64,000 nucleotides of DNA from Companilactobacillus kedongensis. Lineage in GTDB: Bacteria > Bacillota > Bacilli > Lactobacillales > Lactobacillaceae. Shown piece after piece: positions 3,054-62,296 of this stretch (the stretch's first letter is position 1; each line of letters starts with the position of its first letter). The notes under the pieces were generated by a model. The model saw only the letters and a list, made by a program, of their open reading frames with translations. It was not told the DNA's origin and did no database searches. Position numbers and translations under genes: made by a program. The stretch is from assembly GCF_003946625.1 (NCBI RefSeq), contig NZ_RHOR01000001.1:1-64000 (forward strand), read 5' to 3'.

Positions 3054-3074
3054 CTTTTAAGCAACAAAACAAAA

Positions 3075-3304
3075 AGAGGTCGCGACTGACATTATTAAGC
3101 AAGGGAGTTCTTGCAAGAACAGTGAACTTGTCCAAAGGGGATGTCGCCGAAGCGCTGGGTGTTGCAAAGCTCAGTTCGCTGGGACGTACTAACAATATAG
3201 TACGAACTGTCGCAGCAAAATGTCGCTGCGTTGCGCTTATGACAAAATGATGCGGAATTACGTGAATTTTGGATCTCTTTGTTTAAGCAAAGGGGTCTTT
3301 TTTT
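3075..3304 (+). promoter_or_regulatory. Lysine riboswitch (L-box) with terminator
   Basis: The leader has the conserved L-box segments AGAGGTCGCGAC, AAGGGGATGTCGCCGAAG and GCTGGG in the right order and spacing. At 3272-3304 an intrinsic terminator follows (GATCTCTTTG/CAAAGGGGTC, then T7). In this RNA class lysine binding favours termination, so the operon from lysA onward should be repressed by lysine. The exact end of the aptamer is an estimate (about 3215-3230). Short open frames on the minus strand here are not genes. Confidence 0.9.
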
Positions 3305-23613: not shown

Positions 23614-23710
23614 AGAGACTCCTTTACGTATAAAGACATATTAGTGTAGAAAAACTTTCACGTCAATTCAACTTTTTCCTGAAAGTGTGGAAAAGATGTG
23701 TTAACCTATT

Positions 23711-23790
23711 AAGAGGTTCCTGATGGGATCCTTTTTTTATTTCTGGGAAACTGGATAAAAGGAGAAGCCCTGTAACCGAAAGGTGGAAAA
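23711..23790 (+). promoter_or_regulatory. SMK box (SAM-III) riboswitch of metK
   Basis: The leader ends with AAGCCCTGTAACCGAAAGGTGG directly before the metK ATG (motif at about 23765-23786), and an upstream AGAGGTTCC (23713-23721) can pair around it. GTAACCGAAAGG with the Shine-Dalgarno embedded in it is the hallmark of the translational SAM-III/SMK switch found before metK in Lactobacillales. SAM binding would hide AAGGTGG and stop translation. A weak hairpin with T7 at 23713-23737 lies inside the element. Confidence 0.75.
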
Positions 23791-23793
23791 AAT

Positions 23794-24990
23794 ATGTCAA
23801 AGAATTACTTATTTACTTCTGAATCAGTTTCAGAAGGACATCCTGATAAAGTTGCTGATCAAATCAGTGATTCAATTCTCGATGCTATCCTAGAAAAGGA
23901 TAAAAACGCTCGTGTGGCCTGCGAAACGACTGTTACTACTGGTTTAGTATTGGTTGTTGGTGAAATATCAACTAGCGCTTACGTTGATATTCAGAGTGTC
24001 GTTCGTAATACAATCAAAGAAATTGGTTACGACGGAACAAATCCAGGCTTTGACGGTAATAGTTGTGCCGTCCTTGTTGCTTTAGATGAGCAATCTCCTG
24101 ATATCGCCCAAGGTGTTGATGATGCGCTTGAAAAGCGTGGAAATGATACAGATTACGATCCATTGGATCAAATTGGTGCCGGAGATCAAGGTTTTGTATT
24201 CGGTTTTGCTACAAACGAAACTAAAGAATACATGCCATTACCAATTTCTTTAGCACACAAGTTAATGCGTAAAACAGCTGAAGTTAGAAAAAATAATACG
24301 ATCGATTACTTGATGCCTGACGCTAAGTCACAAGTAACGATCGAATATGATGAAAACGATAAGCCAGTTCGTGTTGATACAATCGTTTTGAGTACTCAAC
24401 ACAAAGAAGAGGCAACTCTTGAACAAGTTCAAAAGGATATCAAAAAATACGTTATCGATGAAGTCGTACCAAAGAACTTGATCGACGATAATACTAAGTT
24501 TTTGATCAACCCAACAGGACGTTTTGTTATTGGTGGACCAGAAGGAGATTCTGGTTTAACTGGTAGAAAAGTTATCGTTGATACTTACGGTGGCTTTGCT
24601 CGTCACGGTGGTGGTGCCTTTTCAGGTAAAGATGCTACTAAGGTTGACCGTTCGGCAAGTTATGCGGCAAGATACATTGCCAAAAACTTAGTTGCTGCTG
24701 GTATTGCTGAAAAGTGTGAGATTCAAATTGCTTATGCTATCGGTGTTGCTAGACCAGTTTCAATTCACGTTGATACTTTTGGAACAAGTGATTATGCTGA
24801 AGAGCAAATTGTTGCATGTATCAATAAGAATTTCGATTTAAGACCATTAGGTATCATTAAGATGCTTGATTTACAAAGACCAATTTATAAGAAGACGGCC
24901 GCATACGGTCACTTCGGACGTACAGATATTGACCTTCCATGGGAAAAACTTGATAAGATTGATGATATCAAGAGTTTTCTACAGGATTAG
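23794..24990 (+). CDS. metK: S-adenosylmethionine synthetase
   Basis: Makes SAM from methionine and ATP. 398 residues, standard length. Motifs: [19 protein letters not shown] at the N-terminus, the hexapeptide [17 protein letters not shown] and the P-loop-like [16 protein letters not shown]. It is controlled by the SMK-type leader, consistent with feedback by its product. Confidence 0.97.
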
Positions 24991-28405: not shown

Positions 28406-28409
28406 TATA

Positions 28410-28636
28410 TTACAACAAACGGAAGTAGTAAGTTTAAGAAGAATTTCAGAAAGCACGTGGTCAATGTGAACGTGTAACTTGTTAAACTGAACTCGTCCAC
28501 TTAAGTTTGATCACTGAACTAATAGTAAGTGATCACGTACATTCTGCGTTAAAGATATCGAGAGTCGCCAATTGGCGGAACTTAGGTGGTAACGCGATAA
28601 TTCGTCCTATGATTTTATAATCATAGGACTTTTTTA
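28410..28636 (+). promoter_or_regulatory. T-box leader of leuS
   Basis: The T-box sequence AGGTGGTAACGCG (28584-28596) is followed by terminator GTCCTATGATT/AATCATAGGAC and T6 (28604-28636). Upstream is a long stem I region with AGTA and AGAA-type motifs; CTC in TGAACTCG (near 28490) is a plausible leucine specifier. Uncharged tRNA-Leu would favour antitermination of leuS. Confidence 0.9.
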
Positions 28637-44223: not shown

Positions 44224-44490
44224 AAAAAAAAGAGCCCTTCTCCAACTAAGGAAAAGGGCTCAAGTAGAACGGTACCACCTTTTTTGAGTAGTCAAAAAAA
44301 CTACTCACTTTAAATAACGGACAAACTTATCCGCTAGCCTGATATTGGTGGCAACCACGATGATCTACATTATCGACATCGAACTCAGAAATGATTTTCA
44401 AAATTCTCTTAACGGTCACTTCACACTAACCATGACTCACTGGGCGTAGTTGAGATTTCTACTTTTTTCTTCAACGTTTGTTTTTGTTTA
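44224..44490 (-). promoter_or_regulatory. T-box leader of brnQ
   Basis: Minus strand: T-box sequence GGTGGTACCG (44270-44279) then terminator GAGCCCTTTTCC/GGAGAAGGGCTC with T8 (44224-44262). Stem I lies between about 44330 and 44480. The specifier is probably ATC (Ile) in GTAGATCATCG, but I could not fold it with certainty. Confidence 0.88.
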
Positions 44491-61183: not shown

Positions 61184-61431
61184 TGCCGCATACGTGTACA
61201 AGGTTATTGTCTTTTATGTTTAGTGAAGAATGTATAAAATTGCTTTAGGACATTATTATTCTCTCCTTGGATTGGGGTTAGTCGCTTAAATCCTAATATG
61301 AGAATAGTAATGTTCTTTTGTTTTGCTTAAAAATGTTAGGAATGGATTCTTTTCGTAAAAAGGGCATGAAAATGTAATCGAGTTTGACGGTAGTTTCAGA
61401 ACATGATAATTTGTTAATAAATAAAGGAGGG
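61184..61431. other. Non-coding stretch after the adhesin array
   Basis: About 250 nt with no gene. It holds a likely promoter for the next unit: TTGACG (61384-61389) with TAATTT at 17 nt or GATAAT at 15 nt (61405-61410). AAGGAGGG at 61424-61431 is a strong ribosome-binding site for a very short leader frame. No terminator for the adhesin copy 3 is obvious. Confidence 0.45.
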
Positions 61432-61588
61432 ATGACTGGTGTCAGTATCTATGTAAGGACAATAATTTGAGCAATTTTGGCTGGGAGACTAGTTTATTTG
61501 ACTCGCTCAAACTGCCTTGCAGAAGATATCGATATTAGAACTCCTTCGATATAATCCTTGGTGCAGTTTGATACTGCACTTTTTTTGT
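61432..61588 (+). promoter_or_regulatory. Attenuator-like leader of the GNAT gene, with a short leader frame
   Basis: Three mutually exclusive pairings: TTTGAGC/GCTCAAA (61466-61472 with 61505-61511), CAAACTGC/GCAGTTTG (61508-61515 with 61563-61570, enclosing an ATATCGA/TCGATAT hairpin), and a terminator GTGCAGT/ACTGCAC with T7 (61561-61587). The first overlaps the second, and the second overlaps the third: this is antiterminator logic. After AAGGAGGG a 12-codon frame from ATG 61432 (MTGVSIYVRTII) or a 5-codon frame from GTG 61439 ends within or before the first arm. No known riboswitch or T-box motif is seen. Confidence 0.6.
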
Positions 61589-61627
61589 ATTCTGAAAGGC
61601 ATTTTGCAAATAATTAGGAGAATACAA

Positions 61628-62296
61628 TTGAAAAAAATTGATTTAAAAGAAGTTACATTAAGACAAGAAACACCTGCAGATTACCGTGAAACTGAGACCC
61701 TGGTTAGGAATGCGTTTTGGAATCAGTTTCAACCTGGAGCAATCGAACACTATTTGATTCATGTCATGCGTGATGCTGATAGATTCATTTCCAAATTAGA
61801 TATAATAGCTAAATATCAAGGTAAAACCGTTGGTCAGATTGCTTATATGGAAAACTATATTCAAGGTGATGACGGAATCAAATATCCTGTAATTGGAATT
61901 GGACCAATCTGTGTGGCGACGGAATACGAGGGAAATGGGATCGGTGAGAAACTTATCAATTACACGCGTGATTTAGCAATTCAGATGGGCTATTCTGCAA
62001 TCTTATTACAAGGTGATCCTGATTTTTATTCTCGCAAAGGTTTTGTTCCTTCAAAACAATACAGCATTCGGACGGTTGATAATAAATATGCGGCTGCCCA
62101 ACAAATCGTTGTTCTTTCGAAAACAGCATTAAAAGGTGTCACTGGAAGATATATTGAAGATTCGATCTATTTCTTTGAAATGGATGCTGTTGATAAATTT
62201 GATAAAACTTTCCCACATAAAGAGAAAATTTCGGGGGTACGTCTACAAAATAAAATTAATCAAATTGTTGGGATGGTTGAAGATTACAATGGTTAA
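61628..62296 (+). CDS. GNAT family N-acetyltransferase (YhbS-like)
   Basis: 222 residues from the TTG at 61628 (MKKIDLKEVTLRQET), with TTAGGAG 7 nt upstream; the longer frame from 61517 crosses the leader terminator. GNAT core at residues ~8-150: LRQETPADYRETETLVRNAF, IGIGPICVATEYEGNGIGEKL (acetyl-CoA loop) and LLQGDPDFYSRKGF. The substrate is unknown. An attenuator-like leader precedes it, suggesting inducible expression. Confidence 0.85.
   Translation: MKKIDLKEVTLRQETPADYRETETLVRNAFWNQFQPGAIEHYLIHVMRDADRFISKLDIIAKYQGKTVGQIAYMENYIQGDDGIKYPVIGIGPICVATEYEGNGIGEKLINYTRDLAIQMGYSAILLQGDPDFYSRKGFVPSKQYSIRTVDNKYAAAQQIVVLSKTALKGVTGRYIEDSIYFFEMDAVDKFDKTFPHKEKISGVRLQNKINQIVGMVEDYNG

Follow-up and report, generated by a model that had tools for sequence, protein, structure and literature searches.

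A probable vmlR-type transcription attenuator with a five-codon uORF before a YhbS-like GNAT gene of Companilactobacillus kedongensis, and before a second RsgA-type GTPase in its relatives

Described attenuators and the leader of the window

Genes placed under ribosome-sensing attenuators have repeatedly proved to be resistance factors, as vmlR, hflXr and erm illustrate. Leaders of the ermC type are translational attenuators, and the yjhQ gene of E. coli encodes a GNAT-like protein. In the vmlR leader of Bacillus subtilis, drugs stall ribosomes on a tiny uORF. According to the accessible part of PMC9226507, this 3-codon uORF lies inside an anti-antiterminator, a TTNTTT pause motif is present, and a hairpin that sequesters the Shine-Dalgarno (SD) sequence is opened in the readthrough RNA. 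The same part of that paper places the 30S toeprint of the uORF start codon at +16.

The leader compared here lies upstream of a GNAT gene in a 64,000-nucleotide stretch of DNA from Companilactobacillus kedongensis (contig NZ_RHOR01000001.1, positions 1 to 64,000; hereafter the window), and we consider it highly probable that it is a ribosome-mediated transcription attenuator of the vmlR type. Its elements are the following.

61384-61412, + strand: probable promoter, with -35 TTGACG (61384-61389), a 17-nt spacer, extended TG (61404-61405) and -10 TAATTT (61407-61412)
61423-61431, + strand: uORF Shine-Dalgarno, AAAGGAGGG
61439-61456, + strand: uORF GTG TCA GTA TCT ATG TAA (MSVSM, 5 codons), with TAA 61454-61456 at +16 from the start
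61427-61461, + strand: 5' strand of the anti-antiterminator (SD and uORF), partner of 61513-61547, from folding and permutation covariation
61513-61547, + strand: 3' strand of the anti-antiterminator, from folding and permutation
61466-61511, + strand: hairpin P2, its 3' side T-rich, with TTNTTT at 61494-61499
61508-61515, + strand: 5' strand of the antiterminator, CAAACTGC, with AAACTGC at 61509-61515
61563-61570, + strand: 3' strand of the antiterminator, GCAGTTTG, with GCAGTTT at 61563-61569, overlapping the 5' arm of the terminator
61560-61586, + strand: intrinsic terminator, arms 61560-61567 and 61573-61580, 8 bp, loop of 5, seven T, -11.4 kcal/mol
61585-61627, + strand: hairpin P4 at the SD of the GNAT gene (AGGAG 61616-61620)
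61628-62296, + strand: GNAT gene, YhbS-like, TTG start, 222 aa

The promoter was read by eye and is absent from the consensus-scan list; a similar TTGACG-N17 arrangement was seen by eye upstream of loci L004, L069 and L073. It predicts a transcript start at about 61419, that is, upstream of 61590; a start downstream of that position would speak against the attenuator that an earlier sequence-only reading had proposed. That reading had posited three mutually exclusive structures in an antiterminator/terminator design, and all of these elements were recovered in place, with the leader (61415-61590) folding better than 200 of 200 dinucleotide shuffles (z -5.45). Farther upstream, at 61235-61330, lies a repeated element of about 90 bp with copies in 12 of the 36 genomes of the genus (eight matches in G026, four in G005), which Rfam Ref64 and sau-5949 match weakly and far below gathering; it may belong to a mobile hairpin element or to a family of sRNAs. 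The window also holds a lysine riboswitch, a SAM-III riboswitch and two T-box leaders, at 3066-3246, 23704-23796, 28406-28612 and 44251-44483.

The likeness to vmlR extends to the tiny uORF in an anti-antiterminator, the antiterminator, the intrinsic terminator and the variability of the uORF peptide (PMC9226507, as far as its text is available). The TTNTTT after P2 matches the vmlR pause motif and hairpin P4 would be the counterpart of the vmlR SD-sequestering hairpin, with vmlR-like opening and pausing predicted here, and the vmlR toeprint at +16 equals the distance of the conserved stop codon in leaders of the window's type. A P4-type stem touches the SD of the gene in all six GNAT leaders folded, its stability being as a rule no stronger than that of shuffles (z -0.6 to -2.6), and the P4 loop AAAGGCA (61595-61601) is complementary to TGCCTT (61513-61518) of the antiterminator region. 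Behind the P2 hairpin, TTNTTT was present in 17 of 24 leaders (mean 4.9 and maximum 10 over 300 rounds of shuffling), and the copy at 61494-61499 is a possible NusG pause element; the P2 arms were borderline in permutation (969/20000). The two systems differ in uORF length, 3 codons in vmlR and 5 in the window (3 or 4 in some relatives), and in what they control, an ABC-F protein (ARE ABC-F) for vmlR, whereas leaders of the window's type control a GNAT or an RsgA-type GTPase. Induction by lincosamides, pleuromutilins and streptogramin A has been shown for vmlR, whereas the window leader is known from sequence and folding.

Other described systems share particular features with this leader. In the hflXr/rli80 system of Listeria, too, uORF transcription attenuation controls an additional copy of a ribosome-associated GTPase whose housekeeping copy is also present; the system differs in that the GTPase is HflX instead of RsgA and that the uORF has 14 codons and an RLR motif (available sections of PMC6310831). 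In Streptomyces coelicolor, WblC (of the WblC/WhiB7 regulon) activates, among other genes, 16 GNATs and the RsgA/EngC paralog SCO6149 under translation-targeting antibiotics, and wblC itself has uORF attenuation (PMC7157823, in the part accessible, where RsgA and the uORF are mentioned in separate passages). There, control is by a transcription factor and not by the gene's own leader, and SCO6149 is compared with the second RsgA-type GTPase described below (RsgA2) as a paralog of RsgA, not as an established orthologue. In the E. coli topAI-yjhQ operon, the toiL uORF likewise base-pairs over its length with RNA downstream of it and responds to several ribosome-targeting drugs, in some cases through its start codon; unlike the window leader, it works through RBS occlusion and Rho, has no intrinsic terminator and serves a toxin-antitoxin operon (PMC12121999, in the passages available). 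Finally, more distant GNAT and RsgA2 genes resemble the ermC type in having longer uORFs followed by RBS-sequestering stems, whereas the window leader is mainly transcriptional and its uORF is without a known arrest motif.

The uORF, its partner strand and the proposed switch

The sequence-only reading had proposed that a frame of 5 or 12 codons reaches the first stem and that the position of the ribosome on it may set the fold. Good SD spacing exists only for the GTG at 61439 (8 nt), the ATG at 61432 being 1 nt away, which makes the 5-codon frame the probable uORF. Relatives do not preserve the 12-codon frame: it stops after two codons in L004, is another short peptide in L009 and L005 and lacks its ATG in L007. 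The proposal thus stands for the 5-codon uORF and falls for the 12-codon frame, which is not conserved. The same observations bear on a macrolide-type arrest leader acting through the 12-codon frame, MTGVSIYVRTII. ErmCL carries S-I-F-V, which the S-I-Y-V of that frame resembles at the same positions, and the longer possible uORF of a Roseburia fusion gene, described below, contains ...AIVRT.... However, a start 1 nt from the SD and a frame broken in relatives argue against it, and a conserved arrest motif of the erm type was not found, as the 12-codon frame is not conserved and the 5-codon peptides vary. The likeness to macrolide leaders was accordingly abandoned, and we regard this type of leader as very unlikely here.

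Across leaders the uORF encodes peptides that include MSVSM, MTVSM, MIVSK, MSVSR, MSVSC, MIAHN, MIA, MLFI, MKVIR and MSDIQ. Despite these differing peptides, a stop codon lies at +16 from the start in 33 of 35 short-uORF leaders, a set that was gathered by eye with near-duplicates included and into whose selection, as into the scan described below, the +16 rule was partly built. The +16 stop is kept even in leaders whose frame is already closed by a stop before it (L007, L069, L070, L071 and L073), and an SD-like stretch occurs at the matching place in nearly all of the 35, being weak in L113. A start-to-stop distance that is constant while the peptide varies suggests sensing at or near the start codon. 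Attenuation by scarce charged tRNA, as in amino-acid biosynthesis, would formally fit a uORF inside an attenuator, but no regulatory codon is repeated or conserved in MSVSM, MTVSM, MIVSK, MIAHN, MIA, MLFI, MKVIR and MSDIQ, and the controlled genes are not biosynthetic; we think this most improbable.

A metabolite riboswitch, which the sequence-only reading had entertained, would also explain a structured leader with a terminator, and there is a precedent in another GNAT, in Lactobacillus, that is under a guanidine-IV riboswitch (PMC9788692, in its accessible part). But no Rfam match above gathering, T-boxes included, was obtained in the window leader or in eight related loci (the guanidine-IV model being unconfirmed in that Rfam copy), and conservation falls on the SD, the start codon, the +16 stop and the complementarity and not on the hairpin loops. 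A guanidine-IV riboswitch or variant was set aside because the uORF signals are conserved, and we give a metabolite riboswitch very little credence.

When sequences were scanned for the combination of SD, start, stop at +16 and terminator, with thresholds fixed after the leaders were seen, 22 canonical rsgA loci out of 36 (163 kb with both strands counted) gave no match and the window gave two, namely the GNAT leader and one at 328 in a tRNA stretch; the scan misses L005, L007, L113 and L116, which have a weak hairpin, an interrupted T run or a weak SD. ATG frames of 3-5 codons preceded by an SD numbered 26 at 25 type-1 RsgA2 loci and none at 19 canonical rsgA loci. The frame-length spectrum comprised 18 five-codon, 6 four-codon, 2 three-codon and 2 longer frames at the 25 RsgA2 loci of short-uORF design, against a single frame, of 15 codons, at the 19 canonical loci.

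The whole uORF lies inside the long anti-antiterminator stem (61427-61461 with 61513-61547), and conservation of this pairing was assessed in 26 representative leaders picked from 34 after near-duplicates were dropped, L113 being left out because of its interrupted T run. The duplex of each uORF with its own downstream strand averaged -20.2 kcal/mol, compared with -14.3 (sd 0.64) for permuted partners; none of 20,000 permutations was as good as the matched pairing, a result unchanged with two other cuts, and the window leader ranked first of 26 in both directions. The short GNAT leaders L005 and L007 fail this test, recut included, their pairing being a 7-bp stem only, and L068 and L111 are unremarkable in it. 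A match was also seen between the stretch separating uORF from terminator and the sequence that follows the terminator (2/20000 permutations). The sequence-only reading had suggested covariation across homologues as a check and had named pairings that are not conserved as grounds against it. For the uORF and the anti-antiterminator strand the pairing is conserved; for the antiterminator with the terminator arm, covariation by permutation was not significant (1197/20000), perhaps because these strands are conserved in sequence.

Folding of the nascent RNA is consistent with a switch set by the ribosome. In simulations of the window leader, the antiterminator had 0.2 pairs with the uORF free, 10.7 with a ribosome at the start codon and 12.1 with a ribosome at the stop codon, and the means over the 26 leaders were 1.8, 10.5 and 11.4, respectively. 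Clear switching on simulated occupancy of the uORF was seen in 20 of 26 leaders, versus 18 of 156 controls with a shuffled middle. When the start codon alone is occupied by a ribosome, the full-length window RNA still favours the terminator at equilibrium, and readthrough would thus need kinetic folding, with the antiterminator first, or a ribosome further along.

The leader on GNAT genes and on RsgA2

The GNAT of the window is YhbS-like, with 4rs2 its best match both by sequence (E 9e-15) and by fold (TM 0.71/0.86). Its AlphaFold model has a pLDDT of 95.8, and its nearest solved folds are, in order, E. coli YhbS, a Brucella GNAT, AAC(2')-Ia, human Naa60 and Eis. The enzyme might, as the sequence-only reading suggested, act on an antibiotic or a metabolite. 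A relative occurs in 15 of the 36 genomes of the genus, and among these 15 GNATs (a weak second match in G028, L017, was left out) the same leader precedes nine, the window included, with uORFs MSVSM, MTVSM, MIVSK (five loci), MIAHN and MIA. L006 has only a remnant, SD and uORF MID*; L014, L015 and L016 have a different, RBS-sequestering type of leader; and no leader was seen at L003 and L013. Beyond the genus, 13 of the 18 GNAT loci displayed from the family had no evident leader, and none was seen at the 12 GNAT loci displayed from an order-wide search, which says little because the displayed upstream DNA is coding in about half of them. Leader control of the GNAT is a lineage feature and not universal. 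A Selenomonas GNAT has an upstream uORF, MRNNTLEIAG*. Additional parts, their domains recognised by eye, occur in GNAT relatives from other families of the order (L182 in G532, L177-L179 and L181): in one, the frame (465 aa) continues into an apparent class I methyltransferase, and several have a second GNAT-like domain in frame ahead (frames of about 390-430 aa).

A covariance model built from seven of the nine GNAT leaders and searched in the 36 genus genomes at E up to 0.1 gave 22 matches: eight GNAT leaders, six leaders of a second RsgA-type GTPase, RsgA2 (E 8e-7 to 0.01), and eight others. Among the last, L049, L050, L052, L054, L055 and L056 resemble plain terminators or sequence with no relation to the leader, and L058 and L059 were left unclassified; four matches in other genera (L060-L063) look like terminators. 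By protein search, RsgA2 is present in 8 of the 36 genomes and canonical RsgA in all 36, the window's own genome having canonical RsgA only. The leader architecture was recognised by eye at all eight RsgA2 loci of the genus, six of which the covariance model finds. RsgA2 and close GNATs do not co-occur in the genus beyond chance (8 and 11 of 36 genomes, 3 shared).

In the family, RsgA2 occurs in 68 of 301 genomes and 18 of 40 genera. Of 26 RsgA2 loci displayed from other genera, 19 have the short-uORF design, with peptides that include MSVSR, MSVIR, MSAVQ and MAVID, and six have longer uORFs before RBS-sequestering stems; no uORF leader was seen at L103, where the upstream sequence is incomplete. 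L108 was recognised as a short-uORF locus only through the scan. Most of 38 further RsgA2 loci have, by eye, longer uORFs, and none was seen at L138, L144, L164 and L167. Candidate longer uORFs also precede RsgA2 in Listeria, Peptoclostridium, Cetobacterium and Brevibacillus, four of five loci, the fifth, in Lysinibacillus, showing no clear uORF by eye. The Listeria monocytogenes relative (L125, NZ_CP030101.1) lies behind the candidate uORF MAIVKMENLIINTGVFYL* with an SD. On the Lysinibacillus plasmid (L128, NZ_CP130332.1), RsgA2 lies directly upstream of the fosfomycin-resistance gene fosM and a HAD hydrolase.

Ile-Val occurs in 34 of 46 longer uORF peptides of RsgA2 and GNAT genes (shuffled mean 6.7, maximum 16), a collection made by eye that is phylogenetically redundant and possibly biased by the choice of frame. 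In type-2 leaders, a count of stem changes found changes on both sides in one pair only, with modest controls. In RsgA2 leaders (L104, L105, L074 and others), a conserved strand before the antiterminator, GUGUACCC, is, as read by eye, complementary to two places, the loop of the terminator and the GGGUAC of a hairpin beside the SD of the gene, which suggests that it may have alternative pairing partners.

The two proteins are also linked outside these leaders. A Roseburia plasmid encodes a single 526-aa protein with GNAT and RsgA domains, its gene standing about 360 nt behind the longer possible uORF MNKKMAIVRTEYV... mentioned above, and Pseudoalteromonas has the GNAT and then rsgA in a row behind a MerR-family regulator. 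These were the only two of 180 plasmid records to match over 80% of the fusion.

Proposed mechanism and possible role

The comparative and folding evidence supports the uORF, its conserved pairing and the proposed logic of the switch. In unstressed cells, ribosomes would translate and then leave the five-codon uORF, whose free RNA would pair with the strand adjoining the antiterminator, which would let the terminator form and end transcription near 61587. If a ribosome were retained on the uORF, in the simplest case on the start codon through inhibition of initiation or of early elongation, it would block this anti-antiterminator pairing; the antiterminator would form first, RNA polymerase would read through and the GNAT would be expressed. 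The attenuator probably has a second, translational layer as well, in that the antiterminator strand may open the hairpin over the GNAT SD in the readthrough RNA. By analogy with vmlR, hflXr, toiL and WblC, drugs that block protein synthesis would be the inducers, and the GNAT and RsgA2 would have a protective role. The presence of the Streptomyces RsgA paralog in the antibiotic-induced WblC regulon fits such a role.

Alternatively, the leader might be a general sensor of translation-initiation or 30S assembly stress (cold, immature subunits) and not of drugs. RsgA is a late 30S assembly GTPase (PMC6912228, in the text accessible) whose paralog has the same leader, one species has the GNAT and an RsgA domain in a single protein, and the GNAT could modify a ribosomal component. 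However, other RsgA2 and GNAT leaders have Ile-Val peptides at varying places, a better fit to drug- or ligand-specific arrest; the vmlR and hflXr leaders serve resistance; and the Streptomyces RsgA paralog follows WblC and tetracycline (PMC7157823, available passages). We consider a general stress sensor unlikely, although it deserves some weight, and prefer induction by inhibitors of translation.

The novelty lies in the cargo that the vmlR-like leader serves, namely RsgA2 and a YhbS-like GNAT. A literature search that was thin on subscription papers and preprints, and was judged by titles, abstract openings and selected passages, found neither RsgA nor a YhbS-like GNAT linked to a leader of its own, nor a module of GNAT and RsgA2 described as such. 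Tentatively, and as an evenly balanced proposal, we suggest that the two form an inducible module countering translation inhibitors, in which RsgA2 would be a small-subunit counterpart of HflXr or of target-protection factors and the GNAT would modify the inhibitor or a ribosomal component. In Bacillota, these genes would have come under separately built uORF attenuators, one of terminator type with a fixed 15-nt start-to-stop distance and one of RBS-sequestering type with a recurrent Ile-Val arrest motif; the Pseudoalteromonas genes stand behind the MerR-family regulator, and the Streptomyces RsgA paralog belongs to the WblC antibiotic regulon.

A GNAT and an extra 30S assembly GTPase are linked by a common leader, by one fusion and by one operon. 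This connection would offer a testable entry to a ribosome-protection function in lactic acid bacteria, and the leaders themselves may serve as natural sensors of translation stress.
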